A stretch of DNA of 29,664 nt from a virus, in IMG/VR virus record IMGVR_UViG_3300031539_011780, positions 1 through 29,664 of that record, one strand, 5' to 3'. Positions within the stretch are counted from its first letter, which is position 1. Every line of letters starts with the position of its first letter. Below are positions 4,339 through 21,501 of the stretch, one piece after another. Under the pieces are notes generated by a model. The model saw nothing but the letters and a program-made list of their open reading frames with translations, had not been told where the DNA came from and ran no database searches. Both the position numbers and the translations under genes were made by a program.

Positions 4339-4340
4339 GG

Positions 4341-4769: not shown

Positions 4770-4780
4770 GTCAGGTCTCC

Positions 4781-4948: not shown

Positions 4949-5331
4949 ACCACCTCCGTATCCACGTGCTTCGTGTGAATGCGCCACGCCTTCCGGTACG
5001 GGTCCGACGGCTCGTAATGGCTCATCTCGCCTCCGGGCGACATCACCTCGTACACGTGGACGGCCTGGCCATCCGTCACACGAATCTGGTCGCCCCGTTC
5101 CGACAGAACCGCCTCGCCACCCAGGACCAGTTCGGCTGCCGACACGATGAAGTCCGTCGAGTCAGCCCACACCAGCGCGCCGTAACCGCCCTCCACCTGG
5201 TAGGACTTGCGGCCGACCGTCGCCTGGACCTCGACCGAGTCCTCGCCACGCTCGTACGTCACCGCCTGCGAAGCGTGTTTGGCACGCTGCTCATCGAGCC
5301 AGGCGGCCCCTTGTTCCAGCAGGTCGGCCAC
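4945..5331 (-). CDS. Phage head-tail joining protein (gpFII-like)
   Basis: This is a 128-residue protein beginning ADLLEQGAAWLDEQRAKHASQAVTYERG and continuing with beta strands (DSVEVQATVGRK, YQVEGGYGALVW). Near the end it has VMSPGGEMSHYEPSDPYRKAWRIHTKHV. The opening 'L..G..WL...R..H.S..V.Y.RG' and the closing '..P....D.....WRIHTK' match the family annotated as phage head-tail joining or 'ATP-binding sugar transporter from prophage' (lambda gpFII-related). The start is a GTG at 5331 with AAGGGA upstream. The gene follows DUF2190 by 12 bases, as expected. Confidence 0.75.
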   Translation of the reverse strand: MADLLEQGAAWLDEQRAKHASQAVTYERGEDSVEVQATVGRKSYQVEGGYGALVWADSTDFIVSAAELVLGGEAVLSERGDQIRVTDGQAVHVYEVMSPGGEMSHYEPSDPYRKAWRIHTKHVDTEVV

Positions 5332-5343
5332 GGCGGCGGTCCC

Positions 5344-5679
5344 TTACTGGCTGAGGCGCACGCGGACCGTCGCGTCGTCGTCGCCGGCTGCCGCGACCGT
5401 CTTGCCGATCAGCTTGTTGGCGCCCGACTCGTCGTCCGTCTTGGCCACGCTGTCACCGACGTCCCAGTACACCTTGGCGCCCGCGCCGATGGCCTCTCCG
5501 ACGCCGGCCGTCTTCGGGAAGTCGAAGACGCCCGCGACGGCGAGCGCGCCGAGCGCGTCGGCCGCGATGGGCTGCTTGGCCACGCCCACCAGGTCGCCCT
5601 GGACCACCACGTCGCCGGCCGCCACGTCCGAACCGGGCGTGTAATCGACGGCCGCACCGTCATGCACGAAAGTTGCCAT
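5344..5679 (-). CDS. DUF2190 capsid cement / decoration protein
   Basis: This is a 111-residue protein starting MATFVHDGAAVDYTPGSDV. The features of DUF2190 are all here: 'DYTPGSDVAAGDVVVQGDLVGVAK', split by turns, then GALAVAGVFDFPKT, AGAKVYWDVGD and the ending NKLIGKTVAAAGDDD...VRVRL. The family is found next to major capsid genes and is believed to decorate or stabilise the capsid shell. GAAAGG precedes the ATG at 5679. It lies 295 bases after the capsid gene, a gap unusual in this otherwise tightly packed operon. Confidence 0.85.
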   Translation of the reverse strand: MATFVHDGAAVDYTPGSDVAAGDVVVQGDLVGVAKQPIAADALGALAVAGVFDFPKTAGVGEAIGAGAKVYWDVGDSVAKTDDESGANKLIGKTVAAAGDDDATVRVRLSQ

Positions 5680-5974
5680 GTTCGTTTCCTTTCGCCCTCA
5701 AAGCGTGTACAATGCGGTTAGCCGCACTTCAGCGGCCGGAAGGAGGTGTCTTTTGAAGGCCATATTGACCCTTCCGGGAAAACCCCATGCGGGGATAACC
5801 ACAGCCCTTCCCTCGATCCCTTGGGATCGCTGACGGACAGGCGTCAGAAACGGGCAGAGAGATGTGGCGCGCGCGGCAAGGCATGGCATGGGACCGTGGG
5901 TATCACGGTCACGGCTCCCCGGGCCTGTCACCGGGGGGTCGCCTTCCTTGTACCTTGCCCTCAGGACCATCAGC
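5680..5974. other. Intergenic stretch between capsid and DUF2190 genes, with tandem hairpins
   Basis: No convincing minus-strand gene is seen here; the only open frame (5970-5698) has no ribosome site and no family resemblance. Two tandem inverted repeats occur: ACCGTG/CACGGT at 5893-5909 (five-base loop) and CCCCGG/CCGGGG at 5917-5936 (eight-base loop). Neither is followed by a T-run, so they are not good terminators. On the plus strand, AAGGAGGT at 5740-5747 stands five bases before a TTG at 5753 that opens a 26-codon frame ending at 5833. This is antisense to the late operon and may be chance. Confidence 0.5.
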
Positions 5975-8095
5975 CTACGCCTCGCCCTTGTTTTTCACCC
6001 CGCCCTTCGGATCCTGCAGAGCGACCCCGAAATCATGGTAGCCCCGCATCTGGACACCCAGGACGTTGAAGTCCGCCTCGGCCGTCTCGATGGTCGGCGA
6101 CTCCTGACCGTTGAGGAACGCGACCTCGATCACCGGCAGGTCGTTCGCGTCGGCCAGCAGGTACCACGCCTTGTCGCTCGCGCCGGTGTAATGGGTGTTC
6201 GCCAGGTACCGGCTGACCTCCACCCGGAACTTGCCCTGGTGGGGGTTGGCGACCGGGTACTTGGTCGAGGCCGTCGTGTCACGCAGTTCCAGCGACTTGT
6301 AGAGCTGCGTGCCCATGGCCGACAGGGCCGTCGGCACCAGGACGATCTGCGGCATGATGCCGATGGGCTTGCCGTCCGAGTCCACCTGGTCGAGGAACGC
6401 CACCTCCGCCTTCGTCAGGCCGTCAATCGACAGGACCGTGTCGGTCCCCGTCAGGTAGTTCTTGTTGGCCGTCTTGAAGAACCCCGAGTTGGCGAGGAAG
6501 ATCGTCCAGAACACGTCGTTGATCTTCAGGCCCGACCCACGGCCGAGTTTCCGGGGCACGGTGGTGATGGCGCCGAGGTCGTCGTTGATGATGTCACGCC
6601 GGTCGACCGACAGGAGCAGGCCGTAGGTATCGGCCTTGTTCGCGTACTGTTCCTCTCCCAGCGTGCCGTGCTTGAGTTCCCCGCCTGGCGCGACCGGCTC
6701 GTACTGGTCCTTGCCGATCAGGCGGTAGGAGGTGACGGTCTTGAAGTCCGAGACGTTGCGGACGGCGCAGATGTTGCGCCACACGCGCTCGACGCTGAAG
6801 AACCCGTCCAGGAGGAACTTGTTGGCGACGTTCGACAGGATGCCGCCGATGTCGATGGTCGAGAAGGCGGCCGCCAGGTTCTGGCCGAAGGCGAACCGAA
6901 GGACCTCGCGGGTCGCTCGGAAGTTGCGGCCGGTGTACCCATTGGCCCACGCCGCCTCCAGCAACAGTTCCTGGAGGCCGATGCCGCCGCGGAACCGCTT
7001 GGCGGCCGCGTCGAGCGCCTGCTCGTCACAGTGGTCCTCGGGTTTCTGGAGACCGGCCGTCAGGAGACAGGCGGCCTCGAGGACGGTGCCGTTGACACCG
7101 GCCTCCGGTACGTGGGCCGCCGGGGCCTTGGGACGCGAGGCCCGAAGGACCTCCAACTCGGTCTTCGTCTCGTCCCAGCCTTCCTCGATGGCCTTCGCCT
7201 CGATCTCCGGATGCCTGCCGGCGCAGGTCTTGCGGATCGTGGCCACGCGCTTCGTCTCAGTGGCCAGTTCCGCCCGCAGGTTCTCGACGGCCGCTTTCGC
7301 GTCCACCGCGCTTGGCGCGGCTTGCGTGACCTGCGGTTCGTCGGACCCGTCCGGGTCGGCCGGAGGCGGCTCCTCGCCGCCATCGTCACCTTCGCCGCCG
7401 GCCTGACTCGCCTCGATGGCCTCGTACGTGCCTTTGAGGTTCTCGGCCTGTTTCTCCGACAGGTCCGCCAGCGTGAAGCCCTGTGCTTCCACCCACTCTT
7501 CGAAGTTCATCGCAAACACCTCCGTGTTCTGTCGGGCCGCCTGGGCGGCCACCTTCGCACTCGTGTCCTCGTCCGCTCCCAATGCCACGAAACTCATCTC
7601 GCCGAGCGTCGCACGCCGGGCGACGTAGACCGGCCCGGAGAACTCGCGGCCGTTTGCGCGGGCCGTCTTACCCTCCGGCACGAACACGACCTTCTCGGCC
7701 CGGGCGCCGACCGACGCCTGCCAGGGAAAGCCGTTCTCGCTCGACTGGACCACCTCCTGTGCCACGCGGCCGGCGCCGGAGATGACACCGGTGACCTCGA
7801 GCGTGGTGTCGGTCTTCGTGATCCGGTCCGTGTGACCCACGATCAGGCTGCGGTTGTGGTCCTTGAGAATCGGCCGCGACTGTTTCGGGATCTTCAGGCC
7901 CTTCAGGTCCACGACCACCGGGTAGGGCCACCCAGCCAGGACCATCTCGCCGCCGGTGTAGGCCGTCATCGTGAACCGCCGCAGTTGCTGACCTTCTTCG
8001 GCGGCGGCCTCGATGGCCAGAGCACCCGCCTCGCCGCAGATCTCGAAGGTCGTCGGGACCGACTCAGGCAGCTTCACGGTTCGTTTCCGGCTCAT
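5975..8095 (-). CDS. Prohead protease / major capsid protein fusion
   Basis: This is a 706-residue protein joining three parts. Residues about 15-190 are an HK97-type prohead protease: LKDHN with a candidate catalytic His80, FPWQASVGA with candidate Ser128, and a late LGEMSFVALGAD strand. Residues about 190-400 are acidic and coiled-coil-like (EEWVEAQGFTLADLSEKQ, a Gly/Asp/Pro-rich linker, then a long helix around VENLRAELATETKRVA), as expected for a scaffold or delta domain. Residues about 400-706 are the capsid protein, with FLLDGFFSVERVWRNIC, VTSYRLIGKDQYEPVAPGG, LLLSVDRRDIINDDLGA and PQIVLVPTALS. Protease-capsid fusions are known in some tailed phages. The protease presumably frees the capsid protein in cis during maturation. 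The ATG at 8095 overlaps the portal gene by 32 bases. Confidence 0.88.
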   Translation of the reverse strand: MSRKRTVKLPESVPTTFEICGEAGALAIEAAAEEGQQLRRFTMTAYTGGEMVLAGWPYPVVVDLKGLKIPKQSRPILKDHNRSLIVGHTDRITKTDTTLEVTGVISGAGRVAQEVVQSSENGFPWQASVGARAEKVVFVPEGKTARANGREFSGPVYVARRATLGEMSFVALGADEDTSAKVAAQAARQNTEVFAMNFEEWVEAQGFTLADLSEKQAENLKGTYEAIEASQAGGEGDDGGEEPPPADPDGSDEPQVTQAAPSAVDAKAAVENLRAELATETKRVATIRKTCAGRHPEIEAKAIEEGWDETKTELEVLRASRPKAPAAHVPEAGVNGTVLEAACLLTAGLQKPEDHCDEQALDAAAKRFRGGIGLQELLLEAAWANGYTGRNFRATREVLRFAFGQNLAAAFSTIDIGGILSNVANKFLLDGFFSVERVWRNICAVRNVSDFKTVTSYRLIGKDQYEPVAPGGELKHGTLGEEQYANKADTYGLLLSVDRRDIINDDLGAITTVPRKLGRGSGLKINDVFWTIFLANSGFFKTANKNYLTGTDTVLSIDGLTKAEVAFLDQVDSDGKPIGIMPQIVLVPTALSAMGTQLYKSLELRDTTASTKYPVANPHQGKFRVEVSRYLANTHYTGASDKAWYLLADANDLPVIEVAFLNGQESPTIETAEADFNVLGVQMRGYHDFGVALQDPKGGVKNKGEA

Positions 8096-9524
8096 CCTCG
8101 TCGTCCTTTTCTGCCACAGGCAGGGCCTCGGGTTCCGTCAGGCCCAGTTCCCGCATCAGTTCCTTCTCCTTGGCCCGTTGCCGGAGCTGCTCCTCCCAGT
8201 CCAGGCCCGCCTTCGCGTACTCAATCGCCAGCGTGGTCGTGTGGTTCGCAAGGCGGGTCGTCTGGGCCCTCGCTTCCTTCGCCGGGTCCACGTGCTCGTA
8301 GCCGTCCCAGAACCACTGGTGCGGGTACGCGCCTCGCTTGCGCAAGAGGAGCAGCGGGAGACTCAACACGCGGGTCGCTTCCTGCATCCATGCCCCGAAG
8401 ATGCGGTCCAGGGCGACCGCGCCGAGATGGGCCTGTTCCACGCGGACCGACTTGAAGTACGTCTGGTGGTCGAGGCGACCCGAAGCGTAGTTGTAGCCCG
8501 AGGAGTTGCCCGCCGCGACGTTGAACGGCATGTTCAGGCACCGGGCGATCTCGTTCAGGATCTGGTTCTTGAACTCCGCGTAGGTCGTCGCTGGCTGTTC
8601 GGCGTGGACCTGGGCCATCTTCCACCCGCCCGGCATCGTCATGAGCATCCGCTGTTCGAGTTCGATGGCGTCCATCGGCTCGATGGGGTCGGCCTCGCCG
8701 TTCGGCGGCGCGTCGGTGTAGAGGACGCCGGCGAACTCGGCAGCCGTCTCGGCGGATGCGATGACGGCGAGGGTGAACCGGCGCAGTTGGGCAAACAGAG
8801 GCAGCGCCGGCATGATGTCCGGGATACCGCGCGACTGGCCCGGCCGGTCGGCACGGAACCAGTGAATCATCGATTCGGCAGGGACCCGGTCGTATTTCAT
8901 GCCGAGCGCGGCCTGTTTGCTGCCTGGATGGGCCTTGAGGACGTGGTACTCGCGCGGATTGCCGAACCGGTCGAACACGATGCCGTCCACGGCGCCCTTC
9001 GCGTCGGGCTTCAGGTCCGGCGTGGCGACCTGGTCCGCCTCGATGAGGCGCAGGTCGAGTTTCACGGAGGACGGGAGTGCGTCGTTCGAGACGAGCATGG
9101 CGAACGCCTCGCCGTCCTCGGCCCGGGCCATCCGCATCGTCCGGAGTTTTTCGGCGAGACCCACGGCCCTCGACCACTCGGCGAACTCGCGTTCGATCCG
9201 GCGATTGGCTTCCGGGTCGTCCGTCAGCATCTGGAGGCGCGGTCCGGTGCCCACCAGGTCGTTCGCGAGCGTCAGGACGATGCCGCGGGCGTAGGAGTTG
9301 TTGGCGACCTCGTAGCGGGAACGGTTCCGCAGCGTCCGCCGAATCTGCGGGCTGTTGGCGACGTCGGCCGAGAGGCCGTCGGCGCTGGCCCAGTGGCGGC
9401 GGTTCTCGTCGGTCGTGGTGGCCGCATCGTAGCGGCCGCGCAGGAAACGGAAGAGGAGGCCCTGCCGGTCGCTCACACGAGCGGGCTTCGATGAAGAACG
9501 GATTCTCTTGAGCCAGTTGAACAA
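8064..9524 (-). CDS. Phage portal protein, lambda gpB family
   Basis: This is a 486-residue protein, normal for the lambda portal family. It opens MFNWLKRI and carries NRSRYEVANNSYARGIVLTL (split by one turn), NDLVGTGPRLQM, EDGEAFAML, and LRLIEADQV. Later come GIVFDRFGNPREYHVL and WFRADRPGQSRGIPDIMPALPL. These are hallmark segments of phage_portal_2. The portal ring forms the DNA entry/exit vertex and binds terminase. The start is a TTG at 9524, two bases after the gpW-like stop, with GGGAG upstream. In relatives the large terminase lies only one or two genes upstream; here about 14.5 kb separates them. Confidence 0.93.
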   Translation of the reverse strand: MFNWLKRIRSSSKPARVSDRQGLLFRFLRGRYDAATTTDENRRHWASADGLSADVANSPQIRRTLRNRSRYEVANNSYARGIVLTLANDLVGTGPRLQMLTDDPEANRRIEREFAEWSRAVGLAEKLRTMRMARAEDGEAFAMLVSNDALPSSVKLDLRLIEADQVATPDLKPDAKGAVDGIVFDRFGNPREYHVLKAHPGSKQAALGMKYDRVPAESMIHWFRADRPGQSRGIPDIMPALPLFAQLRRFTLAVIASAETAAEFAGVLYTDAPPNGEADPIEPMDAIELEQRMLMTMPGGWKMAQVHAEQPATTYAEFKNQILNEIARCLNMPFNVAAGNSSGYNYASGRLDHQTYFKSVRVEQAHLGAVALDRIFGAWMQEATRVLSLPLLLLRKRGAYPHQWFWDGYEHVDPAKEARAQTTRLANHTTTLAIEYAKAGLDWEEQLRQRAKEKELMRELGLTEPEALPVAEKDDEDEPETNREAA

Positions 9525-9526
9525 GC

Positions 9527-9718
9527 CTATGCTCCCGGCGGTACGAGCTTCGTCAGACGAAAGCCCCGGCCCTTCCGCACCGCGTCCTTGGAGGCGAGGT
9601 AACGGTCGGCCTCGACCTGGTCCTTCAGGTCGTGCTGGCGCATCGAACCCGAATCGCCCGTGGCCTCGGCAGGGCCCTGGGCGTTCTCGCGAATCGTCTG
9701 TTCCAGGTCGTCGGCCAC
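9527..9718 (-). CDS. gpW-like small head-tail joining protein
   Basis: This is a 63-residue protein beginning at a GTG at 9718 with a strong GGGAGGT ribosome site. The first half is an acidic helix (ADDLEQTIRENAQGPAEATG). The second has DLKDQVEADRYLASKDA, followed by a conserved-looking RGFRLTKLVPPGA. The pairing 'ADRYLA.K' with 'G...R....LVPPG' directly before a lambda-type portal is characteristic of the small gene found between terminase and portal in this phage type. It is the first phage gene after the cargo, so the late operon must be restarted here by a local promoter or read through from the cargo. Confidence 0.7.
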   Translation of the reverse strand: MADDLEQTIRENAQGPAEATGDSGSMRQHDLKDQVEADRYLASKDAVRKGRGFRLTKLVPPGA

Positions 9719-9762
9719 CTCTTACCTCCCGTCCGACAACCAGGCCGGGCGAACCAAAAGAG

Positions 9763-9796
9763 AAGGCCGCTCGGGTGTTCGGCCCCGAACGGCCTT
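9763..9796 (-). terminator. Hairpin with T-rich tail upstream of the gpW-like gene
   Basis: On the minus strand an outer stem AAGGCC/GGCCTT encloses an inner stem GTTCGG/CCGAAC with a two-base loop and a bulge, and is followed by CTCTTTT (9762-9756). The shape is that of an intrinsic terminator for transcription leaving the cargo. It lies downstream of the candidate promoter at 9864-9892, so if it terminates it would also attenuate transcription of the capsid operon. Confidence 0.4.
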
Positions 9797-9863
9797 GATT
9801 CTTTCGGTGGCAACCCGGTGGGGATCAGCCTCCGGATCGTCGCCTGGTCTGGTTGTCTATCCT

Positions 9864-9892
9864 ATGATACGGTTGGCACAGGGCGGTCGGAA
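9864..9892 (-). promoter_or_regulatory. Candidate promoter for the capsid operon
   Basis: Minus strand: TTCCGA (9892-9887), a 17-base spacer, then TATCAT (9869-9864), which matches five of six bases of the sigma-70 -10 box. The -35 box is weak. TATC/GATA flank four bases around the -10 as a small dyad. It lies about 145 bases before the gpW-like start and is the best candidate for restarting phage transcription after the cargo. Confidence 0.3.
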
Positions 9893-10276
9893 GAGACTTT
9901 CGGGTGGTGAGGTGAAATGGTTACGGATGTGGACCTTGGGGGCATTCCAGCTAAGGGAACGGGCGACCAGATATGAGCTTCCCACAGGGGGGCGCCCGGT
10001 CCGTGCCCTGATGGTACGTTATGCGATGCAATCCAGCCCCTTGCGGTGGCACTTCCTGCTGCAACGCGCATCCGCCGGGCCTTCCACACGAGGGTCTCGC
10101 CCCGTGCTCCTCGTACCGCTCGCCACCTCCTGGGGAGATTTCCTGCTCGTCGGCATGCCCTCGACTGAGGTCCCAAGTCTAGCGTGACGCGTTCCCACTG
10201 AACTCAGCAGGTCACCGGCCGCAGCCGAATCGCCGCCAATAGCGACCGCTCAGAAAACGATAGCAGATTCCAGTCG
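9893..10276. other. Left junction region between cargo and phage, no clear gene
   Basis: About 380 bases lie between the symporter stop and the promoter-like site. Several open frames cross it on both strands, none with a recognisable product. The only one worth noting is a 45-codon minus-strand ORF (10156-10019) ending CSRKCHRKGLDCIA, whose Cys/His spacing could bind zinc; the ribosome site (CGAGGG) is poor. I see no direct repeat shared with the right junction, no tRNA and no integrase or transposase remnant. Confidence 0.4.
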
Positions 10277-11620
10277 TCAATCACTCTTCCCGCGCCCTCG
10301 TATGCGTGCGAGAAGTTCAGTTATGAGCAGCGCAACCAGGGCTACCGGCAGTGATACGAGGGAGGTCTCGGGCATCACGTATCCACTCAAAAGAAGAGCG
10401 CCAACTGCGGCCGCACCCAGCATGATGCTGACGAACACGGAGATGCTTCGCGGATCGAAAAACCGAACGGCTACAACAGCCGGCGACAGGCCAATACCTA
10501 GCCCTGCTATGCTGAGAGCGATAGTGAGTATGTCCTGTACGGCAATGGCCACAATCACCCCCAGCAAACCGGCTACGCCCAAAGCGTAGCGCACAAGGCG
10601 TACCCTCCTTGCATCCGTCCAGCGGCGTCTTCTTTCCGCGAAGTCCTTGACAACGCTAGAGCCAATCACGAAGAGCATCGTGTCTGCACTGGACATGATC
10701 GCGGCAAACAAAACGACAAACCCCAGACCGCGCCACCCTTCTCCCAAGGCCCGTCCGAATCCATACAGGAGAGCCTGAGTAGGATCATCCAAGCCCGGAA
10801 ACTGCTGCCGTGTAGCCAGGGCTATGATGCCAATCACTGCGCCGGCGAGAGGGAGCATGAGAGCAGCAAGAAACAGTCCCCGTCGCAGACTCTGAACGGA
10901 CTTCGCAGCATAAGCGCGCTGCCAGAGATCCGCTGCCACGATCGTATTCAGCGTCCCAATCACAAGGAAGGCAGCACTCTTACCGATGCCGATGCCCAAG
11001 GGACGCGCCGCAGCCCAGGATGGTGCGAGATCTCTCCGCACCACAAGAGCCACGATGCTCGCGAGCAGCACGATCAGCAACCACTGAAACACGTCCGTGC
11101 GAACGCTTGCCCGGAACCCCCCGATAACCATGTACAGCATCACGACAATCCCCACGATCAGCACGCACGACGTGTAGCTCCAACCTGTGAGAAAGGCGAG
11201 CACTTGGCTGCCAAATATGAACTGCACAAGGAGTAGGGCAAGAAAGAAGACCACCAGCAAACCGGCGACGGCATAACCCGGCTTCGCGTCGCGTGGGAAC
11301 CGCGCGAAGAAGTAGTCGGCCATCGTGTGGAAGCGCCCGGCATCGGAAGCTTCCTTTATAGGCCTGGCCATCAGCGCAAAGACACCCAGTCCGACCGCGA
11401 CACCGACAAAGAGCCACAGCGCTGACAAGCCGTATTGATAGACGTAACCAGCGTACACCGCCAGCACAAAGGCATCAAAGAAGCCCGCCGAGACTGAACT
11501 CCCTACCGCAAACGCACCCAATTGGCGGTCCGCCATCATGAAGCCCTCGGCAGACTGGCGCCGCGCTGCGGCCACGCCAATCACGAGGACAGCTACGAGG
11601 TAGGCGATAACATACCACAT
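10277..11620 (-). CDS. Sodium:solute symporter family transporter
   Basis: This is a 447-residue membrane protein with about 12-13 hydrophobic helices. Family signatures are visible: SAEGFMMADRQLGAFAVG near the N-terminus, VIGGFRASVRTDVFQ in the middle (the 'GG..A...TD..Q' site), AADLWQRAYAAKS, and AAIMSSADTMLFVIGSSVVKD. These are diagnostic of SSF transporters, which import an organic solute with sodium. The substrate cannot be read from the sequence. It is the last gene of the block-2 operon, 11 bases after the six-helix membrane protein, so its substrate is probably linked to the radical SAM enzymes upstream. It ends in a basic tail (RIRGRGKSD). Confidence 0.88.
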   Translation of the reverse strand: MWYVIAYLVAVLVIGVAAARRQSAEGFMMADRQLGAFAVGSSVSAGFFDAFVLAVYAGYVYQYGLSALWLFVGVAVGLGVFALMARPIKEASDAGRFHTMADYFFARFPRDAKPGYAVAGLLVVFFLALLLVQFIFGSQVLAFLTGWSYTSCVLIVGIVVMLYMVIGGFRASVRTDVFQWLLIVLLASIVALVVRRDLAPSWAAARPLGIGIGKSAAFLVIGTLNTIVAADLWQRAYAAKSVQSLRRGLFLAALMLPLAGAVIGIIALATRQQFPGLDDPTQALLYGFGRALGEGWRGLGFVVLFAAIMSSADTMLFVIGSSVVKDFAERRRRWTDARRVRLVRYALGVAGLLGVIVAIAVQDILTIALSIAGLGIGLSPAVVAVRFFDPRSISVFVSIMLGAAAVGALLLSGYVMPETSLVSLPVALVALLITELLARIRGRGKSD

Positions 11621-11631
11621 GGCATCCGCAC

Positions 11632-12324
11632 CTATTTCCGCGCTGCGCCACCTCCCAAGCCAGCAACAGCCAGGTGCCTCCGGGCAATACGTCTAAGCCC
11701 TAGGCAAGCGTAGCACAGCCCGACAATGAGCAACAGCACCAGCGCGTACTGGAGCCATACCAGCCAAGCATTGTCGCCCAGTTTCAATCTGGCTTCTGCT
11801 GGCGTCATCCCAACATTCATGGGATGTAAGCTCCAGACCTCATACGGAACCGTCGCTGCCACAAGAACCAAGAGCGCCAGGCTACCGTACAGAACCATCG
11901 CCAGCACCGTGCGAGGCTTATCACCGTGGACGGGGAGAAGCAGGACAGTATCGAAGAGAAAGCACCAGCAGAAAAGGAACATCATGCCGCTTCTGCATCC
12001 CCCCGCCAAGAACACAAACGCACCCGTCATGAACAGGTCGACCAAGATGACGAGCCAAGGCTTCTCCTGCTGAGCCTTTAGCCATTCCCCGTGTGGCCCT
12101 CGGGACTTCTTACAATGACAGCCGAAGAGTATGAACGACGCAGCGACCCACGCGGCATAGCCGAGGAGCCAGGGGCTCTCGGCAAACCACCCCGTCACTA
12201 CCTGGGACAGACCGTGACCGGCGCTCACCAAGAAAACGAACGCCGTGCAGGCCAAGAAATGAGTCTCCACTTCCTCGCGGTAGTCTTGGAGTGGCTGTGC
12301 TTCCGCACCTGCCGCCTCACACAT
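11632..12324 (-). CDS. Six-helix membrane protein of unknown function
   Basis: The protein has 230 residues from the ATG at 12324, five bases after the upstream stop, with GGAGGG as ribosome site. The longer in-frame start overlaps the radical SAM gene and was not chosen. A short polar N-terminus (EAAGAEAQPLQDYREEVETH) is followed by about six hydrophobic helices, including FLACTAFVFLVSAGHGL, WLLGYAAWVAASFILFGC, LVILVDLFMTGAFVFLAGG and the last, LVWLQYALVLLLIVGLCYAC. A loop of about 30 residues (EVWSLHPMNVGMTPAEARLKL split) lies before the last helix. Cysteines are frequent near membrane ends. No family is recognised. Its location between a B12 radical SAM enzyme and a symporter suggests a membrane partner in the same pathway. 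Confidence 0.7.
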   Translation of the reverse strand: MCEAAGAEAQPLQDYREEVETHFLACTAFVFLVSAGHGLSQVVTGWFAESPWLLGYAAWVAASFILFGCHCKKSRGPHGEWLKAQQEKPWLVILVDLFMTGAFVFLAGGCRSGMMFLFCWCFLFDTVLLLPVHGDKPRTVLAMVLYGSLALLVLVAATVPYEVWSLHPMNVGMTPAEARLKLGDNAWLVWLQYALVLLLIVGLCYACLGLRRIARRHLAVAGLGGGAARK

Positions 12325-12329
12325 GTCGA

Positions 12330-13622
12330 TCACCCTCCACCTGAATCCGCACTCCTGCCTAGCACACCGTAGTCCCTGTTTATGGCCGAGAAATACCACG
12401 CCGGCTGGACCGCGCGGCGGCGGCGACGGGCTATTGCCTCCGGCCGATAGAACTCCTGGTACGCCTCACGGAAGCCTCGCAAAAGCCTCTCCGCGGACAT
12501 GAGAGCAGGCTTGAACACCACGTGAAACCCATCAAAGTAGCGCCACTCTTGTTTGAGAAGTCTTTCTTCGCGAAGGCATCGCGCGTAGAAGCTCGTTCCC
12601 GGAAAAGGAGTGAGTATAGAGAAGTGTGCCAGCTCAACGTCGGCATCGTAGCAGAACCCTAGCGTCGTTTCGAAGACACCCTCGTCCTCTTCGTCAAACC
12701 CAAATATGAAAGCCGCCTCAACACCTATTCCCTCCCCCCGTATGGCATCAACACAGGATCTGTATTCGTCCGGCACATTGCAGGTCTTGCGGCTTGCTCT
12801 CAGGGACCGCGCCGAAAGTGACTCCAGTCCTATCAGCAGAGAGATGCAGCCGCTCCTTTTCGCGGCTACAAGCGTGTCCAGATCATGGCCGATTGAAATA
12901 CTCGCTTGGTTCAGCCATGTGAGCTGGAGGGGCTCGATAGCCCGGAAGAGCCTTAGCGCATACTCCCGATTGCAATAGAGGTTGTCATCAACAAACCACA
13001 CAAACTGCCCGCTCATGGGCTTAAGGTCTCGAACAACATCCTCAATCGGTCTCGGCCTGAAGCCTATCCCAGAGGAGGCGTAGACGGTACAGAAAGCACA
13101 CCGGTGACTGCAGCCCAGGCTTGAGAGCGCTACATTCATAGTGCCATATCGCGGCGCGAGTCTTGCGACCTTGGAGAAATCCGGTAAGGGCAGATTCAAA
13201 AGCCTACCAAGCTTTGTGTCGCTATACAGTCGTCTAGCAGAATCTGCGGCGAACTCTGAGATGAACTGCGGCCACGTTCTCTCGGCCGGCCCCACGAAGA
13301 CGAAGTCCGCATGCCCAAGTGCCTCTTCGGGAAGCAAGGAGGGATGGCATCCTCCGAGAGCTACCCGAACCCCAAGGTTCTTGCAGTGATCGGCAATCTC
13401 GTAAGCCCTCGTCGATGCAGCAGTGGAACACGTCATACCTACCAGGTCATAAGTGCTGAGATCTGGAAGCTCCTCCAGATGCTCATCGAATACGTCGACC
13501 TTAACCGTGTCCGGAGTAAGGGACGCAAGAATAAGGAGACCCAAGGGAGGTATACGGAGTGGCTCAACGCCAAAGATGCCGTCCGACGAAGAGGGGCGAG
13601 GCGAGACAAAGCAGATATGCAT
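12330..13622 (-). CDS. B12-binding radical SAM protein, DUF4070-like C-terminus
   Basis: This 430-residue protein starts MHICFVSPRP. Residues 1-140 look like a cobalamin-binding domain, with PLGLLILASL, a DLVGMTCST strand and LGGCHPSLLPEEAL. Residues 160-370 are a radical SAM barrel with the cluster motif GCSHRCAFC (Cys171, Cys175, Cys178), then VWFVDDNLYCN and LLIGLESLSA. The C-terminal part (SILTPFPGTSFYARC, WRYFDGFHVVFKPALMSAE) resembles DUF4070. B12-dependent radical SAM enzymes of this architecture include methylases and the hopanoid enzymes HpnP and HpnR, which act on isoprenoid lipids. The reaction here is unknown. GGAG lies nine bases before the ATG. The gene is 55 bases after the RaSEA-like gene. 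Confidence 0.88.
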   Translation of the reverse strand: MHICFVSPRPSSSDGIFGVEPLRIPPLGLLILASLTPDTVKVDVFDEHLEELPDLSTYDLVGMTCSTAASTRAYEIADHCKNLGVRVALGGCHPSLLPEEALGHADFVFVGPAERTWPQFISEFAADSARRLYSDTKLGRLLNLPLPDFSKVARLAPRYGTMNVALSSLGCSHRCAFCTVYASSGIGFRPRPIEDVVRDLKPMSGQFVWFVDDNLYCNREYALRLFRAIEPLQLTWLNQASISIGHDLDTLVAAKRSGCISLLIGLESLSARSLRASRKTCNVPDEYRSCVDAIRGEGIGVEAAFIFGFDEEDEGVFETTLGFCYDADVELAHFSILTPFPGTSFYARCLREERLLKQEWRYFDGFHVVFKPALMSAERLLRGFREAYQEFYRPEAIARRRRRAVQPAWYFSAINRDYGVLGRSADSGGG

Positions 13623-13677
13623 GTCGGTACGCTCCGGATCCCGTACTCAGTTGTAGCTTCAGAACACCGCGCTCAGA

Positions 13678-14586
13678 CTACTTGCTCTTGCTGACACCAC
13701 AGAAACAACCAGCCACCGTCCTCTGGCAATGCTGTTGGGTCCTCCTCTCTGCAACGGCACTCGGCGCAACAACCCTCGGTGACGCGATGTCACCACCCCG
13801 ACGGACCCCCATCACCTCAGAGCACGCTGCCTCGATCTCGTCGACAATACTGGGTTCCGGCAATCGGTATTCCCCAGCCTCCCAGAGCTCCTGTAGCCTA
13901 CTGCCTGCAACCACAAGAACCGGCTCCATCCAGCACTCGGTAACCCCCAAGTCCCGAAGGAAGATCACGGTGCTCACGGCTTCGGCCACTGCCTGAGCCC
14001 GTGTCACGCCGGGCGGTTGAGCAACTACGAAGGGCACAGGTCTAGTGCCGCGCCTCTTCGCACACTGGACTGCTCGACGCAGCTCGTACCTTGAGATCTT
14101 CTTGCCGATAACGCCGTTACGGACCGAATCCGAGACAGTATCGAAACCGATCGCGATCTCGACCTGTGCACCAGCGGCGGCCCCCCGGAGCCACTCCACA
14201 GACGCGTCCGACACAAACGTCGGTCGGCTTTCCACCGTGACCGTCTCGACACGCAAAGAGTCGATCGCGCTCCGCACCATCTCTTCGGCGGTGTGCCGCG
14301 GCAGGTCCTGCTCGTCGAGAAAGGAACCTGGACACAGCAGACTTACTACATCTATCTGCTCTCCAGCGTACTCCTGAATCGTCGCGGCGAAGTCCCTTAT
14401 CGCAACGTCCGGACTCTGGCAACAAAGAGGATCGTTTAGGCAAGCACAGTAAATGCACGGTCCAAACGAGCGCGCATGTGCGCAACCGCGCGACCTGACA
14501 GCAACTGCAAGTCGGCTACGTCCTTCGAAAGACGTATCTGTCGGAAACAGCACAGCCCTTCTCGAAAGCAAACGCTGCCGGTCCAT
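13678..14586 (-). CDS. RaSEA-like radical SAM protein
   Basis: This is a 302-residue protein from the ATG at 14586, four bases after the upstream stop. The cluster motif is unusual: RSRGCAHARSFGPCIYC, giving Cys35-x8-Cys44-x2-Cys47. It is like Elp3 and the archaeosine enzyme RaSEA rather than the common CX3CX2C. Further RaSEA-like segments are VTVESRPTFVSDASVEWL, EIAIGFDTVSDSVRN, a Lys/Ser-Tyr-Glu helix (KKISRYELRRAV) and GEYRLPEPSIVDEI. RaSEA acts on 7-deazaguanine in archaeal tRNA. No partner for that pathway is present here, so this homologue probably has a different substrate, perhaps shared with the B12 radical SAM enzyme downstream. The C-terminal 40 residues are Cys- and Arg-rich and look poorly ordered. 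Confidence 0.75.
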   Translation of the reverse strand: MDRQRLLSRRAVLFPTDTSFEGRSRLAVAVRSRGCAHARSFGPCIYCACLNDPLCCQSPDVAIRDFAATIQEYAGEQIDVVSLLCPGSFLDEQDLPRHTAEEMVRSAIDSLRVETVTVESRPTFVSDASVEWLRGAAAGAQVEIAIGFDTVSDSVRNGVIGKKISRYELRRAVQCAKRRGTRPVPFVVAQPPGVTRAQAVAEAVSTVIFLRDLGVTECWMEPVLVVAGSRLQELWEAGEYRLPEPSIVDEIEAACSEVMGVRRGGDIASPRVVAPSAVAERRTQQHCQRTVAGCFCGVSKSK

Positions 14587-14590
14587 ACTG

Positions 14591-15328
14591 TTACGCTGCC
14601 CCCACCGAGGCCACCGTCCTCCCGCCACCGGCAAGGGCCAGCCAGCCGAGCTTCTCAGGGATCAATGCCCTGAACCTTTCTTCCTCATCAGCCATCGCCG
14701 CCTCCAGCACGGCACAAGACTCAGCATCCAGAGCCCCACCAGCGCACAGTCTTCGCAGTGTAGCCAGAGCTACGCCGAGCAAGGCGTCGAACTCTGCGCA
14801 TACCACGCTTACCGGATCCACGCTCAATCGCTGCGCGAGAACAAGGAAGTTGAAGTTCGGCCTGACCAAGTCTTCCTCAACGTCTGCAACATCATCACAC
14901 AGTTCCCGGAACGTATCCGTCGCGCGGAGCGCTTTGTAGACGTCAGGGCAAAGCTTCTGGCCTGCACGGCAGGCCAAGCTCCGACGATAGATGTTAATGT
15001 CGGCGGACTTTAAGTAAAGAATGCGACTAAGGCGCCCCTCTATGACACCTTTGCCTTGCCGAAGGTCCTTCTCATGCCGTTCGTAGATCTGCAACTCCTC
15101 CACTTCCGCCGCGCTGACCGAGCGCCAGCTCTCCTCAAGAGGTGCCGTCAGAAAGCGGAGTCGTCTCCACAAGCAAGGCGTCGCTGCCCAATCACCAGCC
15201 TCAACGGCGTGGTCTAAGCGACGGATTGTGAGCACAATATCCTCAATGTCTCTCAAGGCCACATCAGGACATCGCAAAAAGATGTGCGCGAACTCCCTTA
15301 CAGGAACATCGATTCTCGCTCCGTACAT
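14591..15328 (-). CDS. All-helical protein with DDxxDxxED motif, possibly isoprenoid-synthase-like
   Basis: The protein has 245 residues from the ATG at 15328 (GGAGGATGG as ribosome site). It appears wholly helical. Around residues 145-153 it carries an Asp-rich motif, ELCDDVADVEEDL, followed by RPNFNFL. A basic segment precedes it (SADINIYRRSLACRAGQKL). Asp-rich DDxxD motifs in an all-helical protein bind Mg-diphosphate in class I isoprenoid synthases, and this is the best clue available. A second clear metal-binding motif is not evident, so it may be a distant relative, a non-catalytic one or unrelated. It is the first gene of a five-gene operon with two radical SAM enzymes and a transporter. 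I am unsure of the family. Confidence 0.5.
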   Translation of the reverse strand: MYGARIDVPVREFAHIFLRCPDVALRDIEDIVLTIRRLDHAVEAGDWAATPCLWRRLRFLTAPLEESWRSVSAAEVEELQIYERHEKDLRQGKGVIEGRLSRILYLKSADINIYRRSLACRAGQKLCPDVYKALRATDTFRELCDDVADVEEDLVRPNFNFLVLAQRLSVDPVSVVCAEFDALLGVALATLRRLCAGGALDAESCAVLEAAMADEEERFRALIPEKLGWLALAGGGRTVASVGAA

Positions 15329-15399
15329 GCCGCCATCCTCCACTCTTTCGGCGCGTCGCCGATCCCCGCCTTTGCACAAACGCAGGTGGACCAGGGATT

Positions 15400-15436
15400 G
15401 CTGTTGAATTGTAACAGCCTGTCAAGTGGGCGCCAA
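15400..15436 (-). promoter_or_regulatory. Promoter with overlapping operator-like dyad for the block-2 operon
   Basis: Minus strand: TTGGCG (15436-15431), a 17-base spacer, then TACAAT (15413-15408), a good sigma-70 pair about 80 bases before the first gene. A perfect dyad GCTGTT-ACAATTC-AACAGC spans 15418-15400 and covers the -10 box, where a repressor could block polymerase. A TTGACA also occurs at 15425-15420, but with no fitting -10 box. Confidence 0.55.
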
Positions 15437-15440
15437 GGAA

Positions 15441-15773
15441 TTAGGGCTTTATGGCATCGGCTTTGGGCCAAAGAGCGACGGGCGGCCCGGATTGCTGATT
15501 GGCCCAGCCAGACGGGGGCGGATGGCAAACCTGCTTATAGGGTCTTCGCCCGGACAGGTGGGCGAGCCACACCTCCTGCACGGCCTCCTCCCGGTCCACG
15601 TGCGGCACGAGGCTGAGTTCCGCCTCAAGCCGCGCCACATCACACGTTGGCGAAAGTGGTTGCATCATCTGCCCTGTACCGACACGAGAAGTGCGAAATG
15701 GGACGGGAAACTGCAACTCGACACAGATTCTTCCGCATCTAGACGCTGGCACCGCAAATGGGCGGCCCGGCAT
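15441..15773 (-). pseudogene. Decayed phage-like ORF (sigma-factor-like segment)
   Basis: An ORF beginning at an ATG at 15773 behind a good AGGAGG contains, near 15641-15560, a convincing helical segment VARLEAELSLVPHVDREE followed by AVQEVWLAHLSG. It resembles the start of small sigma-like proteins ('REE..QEVWL.HL.G'). After LSG the frame becomes Pro/Gly/Trp-rich and implausible, while the neighbouring frame would continue EDP, the expected next residues. This looks like a one-base frameshift. The stretch seems to be a relic of a phage gene, stranded between the two cargo blocks. Confidence 0.35.
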
Positions 15774-16008
15774 GGGGTCCCTCCTCACGGAGGCCAACAG
15801 GCAGTGACGAACCCCTCGCTTCGCACGTCATTCTCTCCCCCATCTTGCGTATACGCTCCCTGGATCCCGGACTGGGCCCCGTTTCCGGGACCGCCATGCC
15901 TCTGGACTGTCGGGCCAAGGCCGATCGAGGTGTAGGGAAATCTGTCAAGAAACGCGGCCAGAAACTGCCGCCGAAGAAGCCTTATTGAGCCGAGGGCCAG
16001 GGCCGGGT
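15774..16008. other. Intergenic remainder between cargo blocks, palindromes only
   Basis: No gene is seen. The stretch holds a perfect ten-base palindrome GCGTATACGC (15847-15856) and several GC-rich imperfect palindromes around 15860-15900. There is no T-run terminator after the second asparaginase stop at 16009, and no recognisable RNA gene. Confidence 0.4.
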
Positions 16009-17520
16009 TCACGCCTTGCAGAATAGCGCCAGGTACAGGCCATCGTACCAGATCTTCTTTCCTCCCATCGGCACAAGTGTGATGTTGATCGGCCGTCCGG
16101 ACTCGACCACCCTGTTGACGGCAGCTGTCACCTCTCGCAGAAACCTCGTGCCCTTCGGCCCCTTGTACTTCTCCTCGAAAGCCGCCGCGAAGTGCGGGTC
16201 GGCTGTGGGCGTGTCGGCAGTTGCTCCGGGCAGGTTGATGAACACGCGCAGCCCTACATCTTCGCCCTCTGCCGTGTCTGCGAAACCCACGCCCGAAATG
16301 CGCAGGACGGCGCGGTGGAGAGCGGTCTTGTCAAACTGGCCCGAAGGCCGGGCGGAGACCTTGACGATTGCCTGCGGTTCGGACTTCTTGCCGGCCCCGC
16401 CATACCGAACGTCAAACAGGTTTTGGCTCTGTTCCCCGCGTTGGTTTATCTGGAGCTGCTTCTGGATCTCTTCAGGATCCGACTCCGTGGCAAGTATCCA
16501 CATCAGCTTCGCCAACGCTGCCTCGGGCGTCATGTCCAAGCCGCTGATGACTCCACGCTCAAGCAGGCCGCTGCTGGCTGCATAGAGGCCCATCTCAACC
16601 ATGCCCTCGACGCACTGCGTGACGTTGAGGATAAGTCTCCCCCCCTGACCTTCGCCCCTGATGGCCTTCCCGATCACATCGAGGAAATCGTCGTAACTCG
16701 GTGCATTTCCCGCACCGAAGGTCCTGAGGACAATGCCCTTCAGGCCCTCCATGCCGAGGAGCCTTTCCAATTGAGTGGCCCTAAGGCCCGGGAACAGGCC
16801 CATGTCCATTACGTCGGAAACTAGGGTCTTGTGAGCGAAAAACGGGGCCTTCTCATTGTCGGCTGGTGGACGGACAAGGTTGGTGTTGATCCGGATGTGC
16901 TCGCCGATGGTACCCAGTTTTGGGAAGTTGGGCGTGTCGAAGCCCTGCCATGAGGCGGTGCTCACCTTGCGCGTGCGGTTCCCCCGAAGCAGGACGTCGC
17001 CGAAACAGATCGTGACTTCCGGCACGAGAGGGAAGCCTGTGGCTTTGTAGCCGGCGATGTAAAGGGCATTCACGAAGTTCTGAACGGCGTCGGTCCGCGT
17101 CTGGCAGATCGGCAGCTGTGAACCGGTAATGACAACCGGTTTTGCCAGGTTGGCTAGGAGGAAGGAAAGGCCTGAAGCCGTGTACGCCATGGTGTCAGTG
17201 CCGTGGAGAATGACGAAGCCGTCAAACTCGTCGTAGACTTTCTCGATGGACGTTGCCATGTAAATCCAATGCTCCGAGTTAACGTCGGACGAATCGAGGG
17301 GCGGAACGTCGTCGCCCTTCTCGTCCACCAGTCGCCCGATTTCCCAGTGAATGCCCTCCTTCTCCCCCAAGCCCGGCACGTACATCTTGAGTTCGTCCTC
17401 ATTCGCCGGAACGAGCGGGCTGGCTGGGTTGTCCGGGTCCTCAGGTACCATCCCGATAGTGCCGCCGGTGTACAGGATATAGACTCTAGCCACGGCGTTC
17501 TCTGGCTTGAGATTTCCCAT
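16009..17520 (-). CDS. Asparaginase family protein with C-terminal extension
   Basis: This is a 503-residue protein. Residues 10-360 are a type I asparaginase: VYILYTGGTIGM with catalytic Thr18, then FVILHGTDTMAYTAS with the Thr108-Asp109 pair, PVVITGSQLP, and LKGIVLRTFGAGNAP. The family hydrolyses Asn (or Gln) to the acid and ammonia in the cytosol; there is no signal peptide. The last 130-140 residues go beyond the usual 330-350. They form a beta-rich domain (AIVKVSARPSGQFDKTAL, DVGLRVFINLPGA, NITLVPMGGKKIWY). The start follows the other asparaginase by 19 bases, with AAAGGAG upstream. Two unequal asparaginases side by side suggest different substrates or a hetero-oligomer, which is inference. 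Confidence 0.85.
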   Translation of the reverse strand: MGNLKPENAVARVYILYTGGTIGMVPEDPDNPASPLVPANEDELKMYVPGLGEKEGIHWEIGRLVDEKGDDVPPLDSSDVNSEHWIYMATSIEKVYDEFDGFVILHGTDTMAYTASGLSFLLANLAKPVVITGSQLPICQTRTDAVQNFVNALYIAGYKATGFPLVPEVTICFGDVLLRGNRTRKVSTASWQGFDTPNFPKLGTIGEHIRINTNLVRPPADNEKAPFFAHKTLVSDVMDMGLFPGLRATQLERLLGMEGLKGIVLRTFGAGNAPSYDDFLDVIGKAIRGEGQGGRLILNVTQCVEGMVEMGLYAASSGLLERGVISGLDMTPEAALAKLMWILATESDPEEIQKQLQINQRGEQSQNLFDVRYGGAGKKSEPQAIVKVSARPSGQFDKTALHRAVLRISGVGFADTAEGEDVGLRVFINLPGATADTPTADPHFAAAFEEKYKGPKGTRFLREVTAAVNRVVESGRPINITLVPMGGKKIWYDGLYLALFCKA

Positions 17521-17539
17521 TGCCGCCTCTCCTTTGAGA

Positions 17540-18613
17540 TTACGGTCGGATCCGTTCAGTCGGGACGTCCATTTCTCCTACGTACACGGTCTGCATCATC
17601 TTGGCAACCCGATCAAGTCTTTGGGATTCGCTAACAGCGCCCTCGCGGATCTCACGCTCTACCTGAGCCAACACCCACCGGAACTTGGCAGCAGCGCAGG
17701 AACTGGTCATATTCCCCGTGGGGATGGCCCCCGCCTGCACGGCTGCGCGGCCTGGCTCGTATGCCGTGTGGAGCGTGGCATTAGCCGGGAACTGACTCGC
17801 GATGGTTACCGGCTTGTTCAAGGCTCTGGCCTGACGGACAAACTCTGTGAAGGCGTACGGTTTTTCGTGGGGGACGTTCCCCGCCCCAAAGGACTGGAGC
17901 ATGACGCCCTTGCATAAAGGCGATTCCAGGGACGGCACGAGAAGCTCCGGTTCCAAGCCGGGGATCAGCGAGACCTGGAGCACGCCCTGCACGAAGTCCG
18001 CCCTCAACTCGATGTTGTCCTGGCGATGGCGGCGCTTCGCCAGGGGCTGGATGACGATCTCCTCCGTGATATAACCGAGGGGGAAGAAGGCGGGCGACTC
18101 GAACGCGTCGAACCGTCGCTCGTCCTTCTTCTGGGCACGGCAGCCGCGGAAGATGTAGTCGCCGAAGGAGATCACCACCTCCGCGAGGTCCGTCGTGGCG
18201 ACCTTGCAGGCCCGCAGGAGGTTGACCCGGGCGTCCCCGTGGCTGACCTCGGGGATCGTCTGGGCCCCCGTGAAGACGACGGGGAAGTCGAGGTTCGGGC
18301 CGAGGGCGAACGCCAGGGCCGACGCCGAGAAATGCATCGTGTCCGTGCCGTGCGCGATGACAAAGCCATCGTACCCGGCCAGGCGCCGCTCATAGACGGC
18401 CTTCGCCATCTCGGTCCAATCCCCGGGGTGCACATTCGTGCTGTCCTTGTTCATCAGAGGTACGAAGTCGAATTCCGTGATCTTGGGCAGTTCGGGCGCG
18501 ACGCGAAGGAAATCTCTGGGGTCGTCAGGGGGGGTGAGCGTGCCGTCCGACAGCCTCTGCATCCCGATCGTTCCGCCTGTATATATCAGGCAGACCCGCG
18601 ACTTGCTCGCCAC
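17540..18613 (-). CDS. Asparaginase family protein (type I-like)
   Basis: This is a 357-residue protein, full length for the family. The N-terminal nucleophile motif is CLIYTGGTIGM with Thr12. The second catalytic segment is VIAHGTDTMHFSAS with Thr90-Asp91. Other conserved blocks are DSTNVHPGDW, PVVFTGAQTIPEVSHGDARV, VVISFGDYIFRG, KGVMLQSFGAGNVP and the C-terminal AAAKFRWVLAQ. No signal peptide is present, so it is cytosolic. The start is a GTG at 18613 with a strong GGAGGG. It follows the ParA-V4R gene by 45 bases and precedes a second asparaginase by 19. Together with the GatA-type amidase upstream, amide hydrolysis or transfer is a theme of this block. Confidence 0.87.
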   Translation of the reverse strand: MASKSRVCLIYTGGTIGMQRLSDGTLTPPDDPRDFLRVAPELPKITEFDFVPLMNKDSTNVHPGDWTEMAKAVYERRLAGYDGFVIAHGTDTMHFSASALAFALGPNLDFPVVFTGAQTIPEVSHGDARVNLLRACKVATTDLAEVVISFGDYIFRGCRAQKKDERRFDAFESPAFFPLGYITEEIVIQPLAKRRHRQDNIELRADFVQGVLQVSLIPGLEPELLVPSLESPLCKGVMLQSFGAGNVPHEKPYAFTEFVRQARALNKPVTIASQFPANATLHTAYEPGRAAVQAGAIPTGNMTSSCAAAKFRWVLAQVEREIREGAVSESQRLDRVAKMMQTVYVGEMDVPTERIRP

Positions 18614-18658
18614 AGCCTATCCCTCCATCGGACGTACGGCCCATGCACAAGCGCGAGG

Positions 18659-20335
18659 CTACGTCTCCGTCGTGCCTGTTGGTTTCTTCGCAACCTTGAA
18701 CACGCAGCTCTCGCTTCTCGACTGCTCGTCCTCGTATCCGAGAATTTCGTGGATGACCGTATAGGTGCCTCCGAGTATGTGTGATAGAACGCCTTCGATG
18801 TATCCGCTGATGAAACTGCACAAAGCATGGTCCCCGTACTCGGAATCGTGAGCAGGCGCGAGGAAACTCTCTCGCAGAACGATTTTGCAGGAGGTCAGTC
18901 GTCCTCCCTCAACGCGCAAACTCCCTGACTTGGGTGCGAACCGCCCGAAACCAACGTCCGAGTCGAAGTCGGACCATTTCCTCACCCAGTCCTCATGATT
19001 CTCCTTGGCTGGCCCTTTCAGACGCCAGACGTCGTTTATCAACACAGAGCCGAATCTCTTGCCACACTCCGCTCCTGCCACGCGCAGGGCCTGCTCGAAC
19101 CCAGTGGGCTCGTCGGTTGGCGCCGCCCCTGACTCCGTGCCATCGTGCCCGCTCTGAGCCTGTTCTGCCTCCGCCGGGGTCAGCAACTCCTCCCGCAAAC
19201 TGTGCAGTAGGAGCTTTATGGTCTCCACCTTGAATGAAACGTTGCGTGCATTGTCACTAGGGTTGATAAGAGCGCCGCGCTCCGTCTCGAGCCTAAACAC
19301 ACGGTCCTTCCACTGGACAAACTGGCCGAGCTTGATACTTGATTTGATCGCCCTAGCCATTTCGTCCACTTGTTCCGTTACATCCTGCCCTGCATACTCC
19401 TTCGCGGGAAGCATGAGTCGAGCGAACAGCCGGACATACTCGTGAGAAAGGAGGCAGTTGTGCGGCATATGCGACAGCCCGAGCCGCAAATGCTCGAACA
19501 TCTCCACGTCGCGGTCTGAATGCAGATAGTATAGTTCGTCCTCTTGCAAGGAAAGCATCGAAAGAATAGTCTGCTTCACCTCGACTCCCCGCCCGGTCTC
19601 GAGGGTCATGGGTGTACGGGTCAGCACCGGAACAACCGCTTCATAAGTCAGTGGTCCGTCAAACCAAGCCTGCATCTCTCTCAGCATCCCGCTAAGAATG
19701 CTGACGCTCTCAACGTTGCTTGCCAGGAAAACGGCGACGACATCCGCCCAGAGCCTGATGGTTGTCCGACTCAGTGGCCCAAAACCGCTGCGGAGGTCGA
19801 GGAGAAAATACTCGGGTTCAGGGCTGAGGTCCGACACCTGTTCCTTGAAGCTTTCCAGAAATCTCTCGCACTGGGAGGCCTGCTTCGCGGTGAAGGCCCC
19901 CACCCCGAGCCCTACGTCACTGGCGAAGAGCATAGTCCAGACAGGACTGGCAACACTTGCCAAGTATTCCTCTTGGTGAATGTAGTCACCGGCCGCGATA
20001 AGGTGAATCGTGCCAAGATCGGCGCCTCGCTGCGGCACGGGGTAGGTGAAGTCAGACAGCGGCTTCTGCGCCTTCCGGCTGCTTACCAACTTCACCGAGT
20101 TCCAGCCTGTCCAGGGGTCTCCCTTGGTGTGGGATCGGACAAAGTCCACGACCCCGCCTGCGCCTGGCGCATGGTCGCACAGATTCTCGAATTTCAGATG
20201 AAGGGTCGGGCAGTCAAAATCGAGATCGACAACCGCACAGTGCTTGCCGAGGCGCGAGAGGCAGACGGCCATGTTGGCAGCCGCGAGCGATTTGCCCGTT
20301 CCTCCCTTAAAACTGTAAAACGCTACCGTTCTCAT
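18659..20335 (-). CDS. ParA/MinD-like ATPase fused to a V4R-like domain
   Basis: This is a 558-residue protein. The N-terminal 300 residues are a ParA/MinD-type ATPase: deviant Walker A SFKGGTGKS (Lys10 and Lys15), VVDLDFDCPT as switch I, and FLLDLRSGFG (Asp180) as Walker B. A helical linker with a low-complexity stretch follows (QAQSGHDGTESGAAPTDEP). The C-terminal 150 residues resemble a V4R (4-vinyl reductase) domain, especially HALCSFISGYIEGVLSHIL and the ending ESCVFKV. V4R domains bind small hydrophobic molecules in sensors and BchJ-like proteins. No ParB partner or centromere repeats lie nearby, so plasmid partitioning is unlikely; a regulated ATPase that positions or activates a partner is inference. 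AAAAGGGG precedes the ATG. Confidence 0.75.
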   Translation of the reverse strand: MRTVAFYSFKGGTGKSLAAANMAVCLSRLGKHCAVVDLDFDCPTLHLKFENLCDHAPGAGGVVDFVRSHTKGDPWTGWNSVKLVSSRKAQKPLSDFTYPVPQRGADLGTIHLIAAGDYIHQEEYLASVASPVWTMLFASDVGLGVGAFTAKQASQCERFLESFKEQVSDLSPEPEYFLLDLRSGFGPLSRTTIRLWADVVAVFLASNVESVSILSGMLREMQAWFDGPLTYEAVVPVLTRTPMTLETGRGVEVKQTILSMLSLQEDELYYLHSDRDVEMFEHLRLGLSHMPHNCLLSHEYVRLFARLMLPAKEYAGQDVTEQVDEMARAIKSSIKLGQFVQWKDRVFRLETERGALINPSDNARNVSFKVETIKLLLHSLREELLTPAEAEQAQSGHDGTESGAAPTDEPTGFEQALRVAGAECGKRFGSVLINDVWRLKGPAKENHEDWVRKWSDFDSDVGFGRFAPKSGSLRVEGGRLTSCKIVLRESFLAPAHDSEYGDHALCSFISGYIEGVLSHILGGTYTVIHEILGYEDEQSRSESCVFKVAKKPTGTTET

Positions 20336-20393
20336 GAGTTACCCCTTTTAGATACTGACAGACTCCGGTGCAGGCCCTCGGGAGCCTCGCGCC

Positions 20394-20407
20394 CCGCGTT
20401 CACGCGG
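20394..20407. repeat. Small perfect inverted repeat upstream of the ParA-V4R gene
   Basis: CCGCGT-TC-ACGCGG lies in the 103-base gap before the ATPase gene. It is palindromic enough to be either an mRNA hairpin or a protein site. No clear promoter pair accompanies it, and there is no T-run. Confidence 0.3.
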
Positions 20408-20438
20408 AGTGATGATCTGCGCCTGCAACCGAGCTCCC

Positions 20439-20852: not shown

Positions 20853-20864
20853 AGTCGGCCCCCC

Positions 20865-21401: not shown

Positions 21402-21501
21402 TGCCCTCTGTCCCGATCCCGTGGGTTGTCCCAGTGCCGTTCTGTCGCCTTGGGGGCGAATAGGCACCCCTCACCCACTCTTGTATTCTCGCGTGCTGGG
21501 C

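Follow-up and report, generated by a model that had tools for sequence, protein, structure and literature searches.

Two questions are raised by this locus: how an operon of five genes, which encode two unlike radical SAM enzymes and a sodium symporter among other proteins, came to lie in a phage genome, and what such an operon might do. The window, i.e., the whole 29,664-nt stretch of DNA analysed here, is a single metagenomic IMG/VR virus record (29.7 kb) from which runs of N are absent. A preliminary description had reported the operon and suggested stepwise synthesis and transport of a small molecule, perhaps isoprenoid-derived. The place of the operon as an insertion inside a phage genome is new relative to that description. 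The genes, in the order 1 to 5, and a control element are:

14591–15328, minus strand: gene 1, an orphan of 245 aa, predicted to be all-helical (ORF; low-confidence helical model)
13678–14586, minus strand: gene 2, a 302-aa radical SAM protein resembling RaSEA/Elp3/MnmL (TIGR01210, C-x8-C-x2-C)
12330–13622, minus strand: gene 3, a 430-aa B12-binding radical SAM protein with a DUF4070-like C-terminus (PF02310, PF04055, PF13282)
11632–12324, minus strand: gene 4, a 230-aa integral membrane protein with 5–6 TM segments (hydropathy)
10277–11620, minus strand: gene 5, a 447-aa sodium:solute symporter (SSF/SSS; PF00474, TIGR00813)
15400–15418, no strand: dyad GCTGTT-N7-AACAGC, overlapping the promoter-like hexamers of the operon

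All five minus-strand ORFs are intact in the ORF list, each with an ATG start and a stop codon, and the intergenic gaps from gene 1 to gene 5 are 4, 55, 5, and 11 bp, which agrees with the tight, operon-like spacing reported earlier. A GGAGG ribosome site precedes gene 1. The dyad, previously called operator-like, is indeed present as a perfect 6-bp repeat. The promoter is weaker than the "good" one described: a promoter scan found a single site, TTGGCG-17-TACAAT at 15436–15408, with 9/12 matches, which is the chance level for the region (1.3 such sites expected). The operon was not met a second time in viral contigs (where only close relatives are detectable), plasmids, or Actinomycetota genomes, and the unity of the operon is therefore argued from gene spacing and borders. 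In IMG/VR, genes 1, 2, 3, and 5 likewise lacked close relatives, and the operon did not turn up in the corresponding slot of another phage.

The operon belongs to a 14.4-kb stretch whose GC content is low for this GC-rich phage, with the terminase large subunit (TerL) on one side and the portal on the other:

24036–26297, minus strand: phage TerL gene, upstream flank (PHROG 15/38)
23866–24036: zinc-ribbon gene, next after TerL
15711–23862, minus strand: second inserted block with gatA, two unknowns, a KGGVGR-type ATPase, and two type I asparaginases (GC 59%)
8067–9524, minus strand: phage portal gene, downstream flank (PHROG 21, 3.2e-69)

The GC content drops from 66–67% to about 59% across roughly 9.9–23.9 kb of the window. 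Both phage flanks have 66–67% GC compared to 58–59% for the operon, and the GC3 values are 0.88–0.89 for the flanks (left 0.89, right 0.88) and 0.645 for the operon. Codon usage is near-identical between the left and right phage genes (distance 0.06), and the operon departs from it. The right flank carries the terminase, zinc-ribbon, and ParB-methyltransferase genes, and the left flank the portal and capsid-protease genes. The window also encodes the phage's own radical SAM protein (27527–28474, minus strand; PHROG 9298), adjoining a ParB-methyltransferase fusion (28417–29661), and on the opposite strand a small basic protein (26991–27290, plus strand) which, judged by eye, is similar to a HARE-HTH domain protein. 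In the second block, the ATPase with the KGGVGR motif gave a weak PADLOC match to PDC-M28B. A phage slot is an odd place for gatA. This part of the stretch looks like ordinary host chromosome, which counts against the cargo-unit reading proposed below.

TerL and portal are neighbours in about 170 related loci, and the gap between them mostly measures close to 0.5 kb and does not exceed about 4.5 kb. Where it is larger, it holds lower-GC genes (AbiEii, PLD, REase-ARP, AAA_14/DUF4143, or the phosphoesterase Metallophos), often of defence type, and the TerL-portal gap can therefore be regarded as a cargo slot. At 14 kb in total, the insert seen here is roughly threefold the size of the largest complete gap among the relatives, a second point against the cargo-unit reading. 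Three relatives (L013, L014, and L189) have a large serine integrase just after the terminase, and two further loci have cellular-looking genes directly after it (L219, 12496–17277; L220, 12834–15677), so that integration near the TerL-portal region may occur in this phage family. By eye, the genes after the terminase in L219 and L220 include TrkH/TrkA-like and two-component genes and a large repeat-type protein. In L175, which belongs to the same record as L013, the portal-capsid module lies on the strand opposite the terminase. Beyond the tail genes of a near-identical phage (L172, 2974–9196, contig G399), we observed DUF4007, PAPS reductase-domain, cysteine-desulfurase-like, and large unknown genes, a set that resembles a phosphorothioation (Dnd-type) island.

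The borders of the insertion are marked by three elements:

15528–15710, minus strand: truncated remnant of a phage "gap gene" at the operon-insertion border; the intact form is about 70 aa, ...REDAVQEAWLAHLEGRNPARAV...
9915–9930, minus strand: conserved motif of the ACATGCGTAACSATTT type, common to about a dozen loci
9735–9857, minus strand: conserved structured RNA with an outer stem and two hairpin domains, at the portal-side border of the cargo slot

The gap-gene remnant was recognised by tblastx in L002 (E 3.8e-18), L211 (1e-12), and further loci, and the gap gene sits between TerL and portal in all ten related loci that carry one. On the other side, the border motif, which can also be written as the ACATGCGTAAC[CG]ATTT type, adjoins the RNA element. 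Two near relatives (L093 and L094; portals 96% and 94%) follow the window as far as 9940 and 9946, respectively, and then continue with other genes including glycoside hydrolases.

The structured RNA precedes the portal in 17 or more loci of related phages and shows strong covariation. An alignment of 14 copies has 37 pairs with 92% of the cells paired, and 18 pairs have changed on both sides compared to 10 in shuffles and 4–7 in slid controls. A covariance model located the RNA upstream of the portal in further phages, typically 340–370 nt before the portal start. No Rfam family matches it. A hairpin with a T-run behind it forms part of the element, which is possibly a late-operon leader, a terminator, or a packaging RNA.

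The operon is thus bounded by phage slot sequence on both sides, i.e., by the remnant (15528–15710) upstream and by the RNA and motif (9735–9930) downstream, which makes a discrete cargo unit the most likely reading. With good confidence we regard it as a self-contained unit of about 5.6 kb (window 9946–15527) in the TerL-portal slot of a temperate-type phage.

Part of this evidence could also be read as host chromosome between two prophages, in which case the 59% GC stretch would be bacterial DNA that separates the TerL end of one prophage from the portal end of another, and the operon an ordinary host operon. In GC content the stretch is level with the DNA that follows the tail genes in contig G399 (58–61%), gatA is a housekeeping gene, and both the cellular-looking genes of L219 and L220 and the glycoside hydrolases of L093 and L094 would fit. 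L092 would fit as well: it is 100% identical over window positions 1–9718 and ends exactly where the first phage gene begins, and we infer that it may once have had the same insertion, trimmed as host. The gap-gene remnant, however, lies in the middle of the stretch and in the correct orientation, and it is mainly for this reason that we consider host DNA improbable. In addition, the TerL and portal sides show the usual gene order and orientation and agree in codon usage, and an integrase is absent from the stretch. An assembly chimera, in which bacterial contigs were misjoined into a phage contig, would explain why the 14.4-kb gap is far above all others, and the window does come from one metagenomic record. 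Yet the joins would then have to coincide with the borders of a recognised cargo slot, phage slot sequence occurs inside the stretch, and the record lacks N runs, which makes a misjoin highly improbable.

If the operon is a cargo unit, its function has to be judged from its proteins. The presence of two different radical SAM enzymes, as stated in the preliminary description, was borne out by the intact C-x8-C-x2-C motif in gene 2 and the intact C-x3-C-x2-C motif in gene 3. Gene 2 matches TIGR01210 (RaSEA) with an E-value of 1.2e-28, and its three-cysteine motif is of the kind that holds a 4Fe-4S cluster. It scored 25.3 bits with PF04055, below the gathering score of 29.5, and was placed in the radical SAM superfamily because of its similarity to TIGR01210 and TIGR01212 together with the cysteine motif. 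The long-spaced cysteine motif and a match over 219 model residues are shared with RaSEA, but the score of 100.3 bits is below the curated cut-off of 212.15, nothing in the operon is related to tRNA, and the ArcS partner is not seen in the window. The assignment to the RaSEA/Elp3 type thus holds as a likeness, and not as membership of the RaSEA family. The relatives of gene 2 are radical SAM proteins from Streptomyces plasmids (30% identity), and one weak relative was present among 396 Actinomycetota genomes.

Gene 3 scored above the gathering thresholds for both PF02310 (37.2 vs. 32.1) and PF04055 (42.6 vs. 29.5), and marginally so for DUF4070 (PF13282; 22.1 vs. a cut-off of 22), and it is a B12-dependent radical SAM protein of the DUF4070 type as first described. 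The combination of B12-binding, radical SAM, and DUF4070-like regions is shared with the lipid and pigment enzymes HpnJ, BchE, and HpnR. Unlike these, gene 3 has no hopanoid or chlorophyll genes nearby, and it scored 89 bits vs. 577.6 for HpnJ, the nearest curated family, and 67 vs. 481 for BchE. Because it falls so far below the HpnJ cut-off, the proposed link to hopanoids applies at the superfamily level and not to HpnJ itself. Radical SAM proteins with 27–37% identity to gene 3 are found on plasmids.

The membrane protein and the sodium symporter were also as reported. Gene 4 has no family in Pfam, where it gave just a weak match to PilS-TM. Gene 5 scored 81.8 bits with PF00474, well above the gathering score of 22.8, and 8.4e-31 with TIGR00813; hydropathy indicates about 11 TM segments, and its PDB relatives are Na+/iodide and multivitamin transporters. 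SSF transporters are sodium-coupled importers.

The product of gene 1 gave no matches in Pfam, PHROG, PADLOC, or PDB and one sub-threshold match in NCBIfam (E 0.091). No relatives were found in viral contigs, plasmids, or the 396 Actinomycetota genomes (where the best match, E 0.0026, is not credible), nor in the plasmid neighbourhoods around relatives of genes 2 and 3. A match in L084 from the genome contig scan was false, as it lay in the wrong frame of an unrelated gene. AlphaFold single-sequence models were helical and of low confidence (pLDDT 51 and 49), and Foldseek searches with such a model gave no match at E ≤ 0.001; matches to bestrophin were dismissed as noise. The protein had been called Asp-rich, which is true of one DDxxD-like motif, CDDVADVEED (residues 144–153), and not of the whole protein (about 7% Asp, counted by eye).

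We propose that the product system most likely alters a single small molecule chemically, by two radical steps, and transports it across the membrane. Two such steps are plausible since both cysteine motifs are intact and the B12 domain of gene 3 scored above its cut-off. Gene 3 would use B12 to methylate or cyclise an unreactive carbon, and gene 2 would carry out a second radical step, an order that, like the use of the cofactors and the direction of transport, we infer. Gene 4 would anchor the complex at the membrane. Sodium-driven uptake of the substrate or a precursor would fall to gene 5. Uptake is the simplest role for gene 5 because SSF proteins are importers, and export of the product is less likely. 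Substrate binding or pre-processing by gene 1 is a guess, as the protein has neither relatives nor a usable fold model. Taken as a whole, a cargo unit that encodes a two-radical-step modification of one small molecule with membrane transport has, in our judgement, about an even chance of being correct. It is rather doubtful, though conceivable, that a temperate phage here brings a complete, transporter-equipped pathway with two radical enzymes as cargo, that lysogens thereby gain the making or salvage of a new small molecule, and that gene 1 founds a new protein family.

Two other functions should be weighed against this two-step modification. In the original proposal the molecule was isoprenoid-derived, so that gene 1 would be a class I isoprenoid synthase whose product is tailored by both radical SAM enzymes. 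The Asp-rich motif fits this, and the best phytoene synthase alignment of protein 1 falls on the first Asp-rich motif of those enzymes, though with an E-value of 0.22. The same value was obtained by hhalign with both the squalene/phytoene synthase (SQS_PSY) and the polyprenyl synthase profiles, and it is inside the range of shuffled sequences. A single PSY aligned to the polyprenyl synthase profile as a control reached only 0.001–0.2, and a very remote link of protein 1 to isoprenoid synthases is therefore possible at the sequence level. No clear second Asp-rich motif was seen by eye, and with the lack of a Pfam match and the distance of gene 3 from HpnJ, an isoprenoid pathway appears very unlikely. 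What stands of the synthesis and transport proposal is the five-gene operon, the two different radical SAM enzymes, and the transporter. Chemical anti-phage defence, in which competing phages would be blocked by a nucleotide or lipid that the operon modifies, with a logic like that of bacterial viperins, is somewhat less far-fetched but still unlikely. Prokaryotic viperins are radical SAM enzymes, and the slot often holds defence-type genes in relatives (AbiEii, PLD, REase-ARP). Against this, PADLOC gave no match for genes 1–4, a sodium symporter is unexpected in a defence system, and at this border the relatives have glycoside hydrolase genes as well.

Neither a matching gene cluster nor a matching phage slot was found in the literature, in agreement with the earlier statement that no characterised cluster has this content. 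Plasmid radical SAM clusters are comparable to the operon. On plasmid unnamed1 of Citrobacter portucalensis and on pFRL5 and pFRL3 of Streptomyces, relatives of gene 3 (27–37%) belong to a cluster of several radical SAM genes that also includes GH3 and desaturase genes, and relatives of gene 2 (30%) adjoin P450, SHMT, and carbamoyltransferase genes. None of these clusters contains gene 1, gene 5, or both radical SAM types together. What is known of phage cargo slots concerns mostly single genes or small modules for defence. A phage that hands its host five genes in one operon, with two radical SAM enzymes of different kinds and a sodium symporter, would be making an unusual metabolic gift. The conserved RNA sharply delimits the slot, so that a screen of further phages for cargo of this sort is feasible. 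Like the morons and cargo in the TerL-portal gaps of related phages, the insertion is a low-GC block between the zinc-ribbon or gap gene and the portal, but where the relatives hold toxin-antitoxin, nuclease, or single-enzyme genes, the slot here holds a five-gene metabolic operon with a transporter and a second large block.
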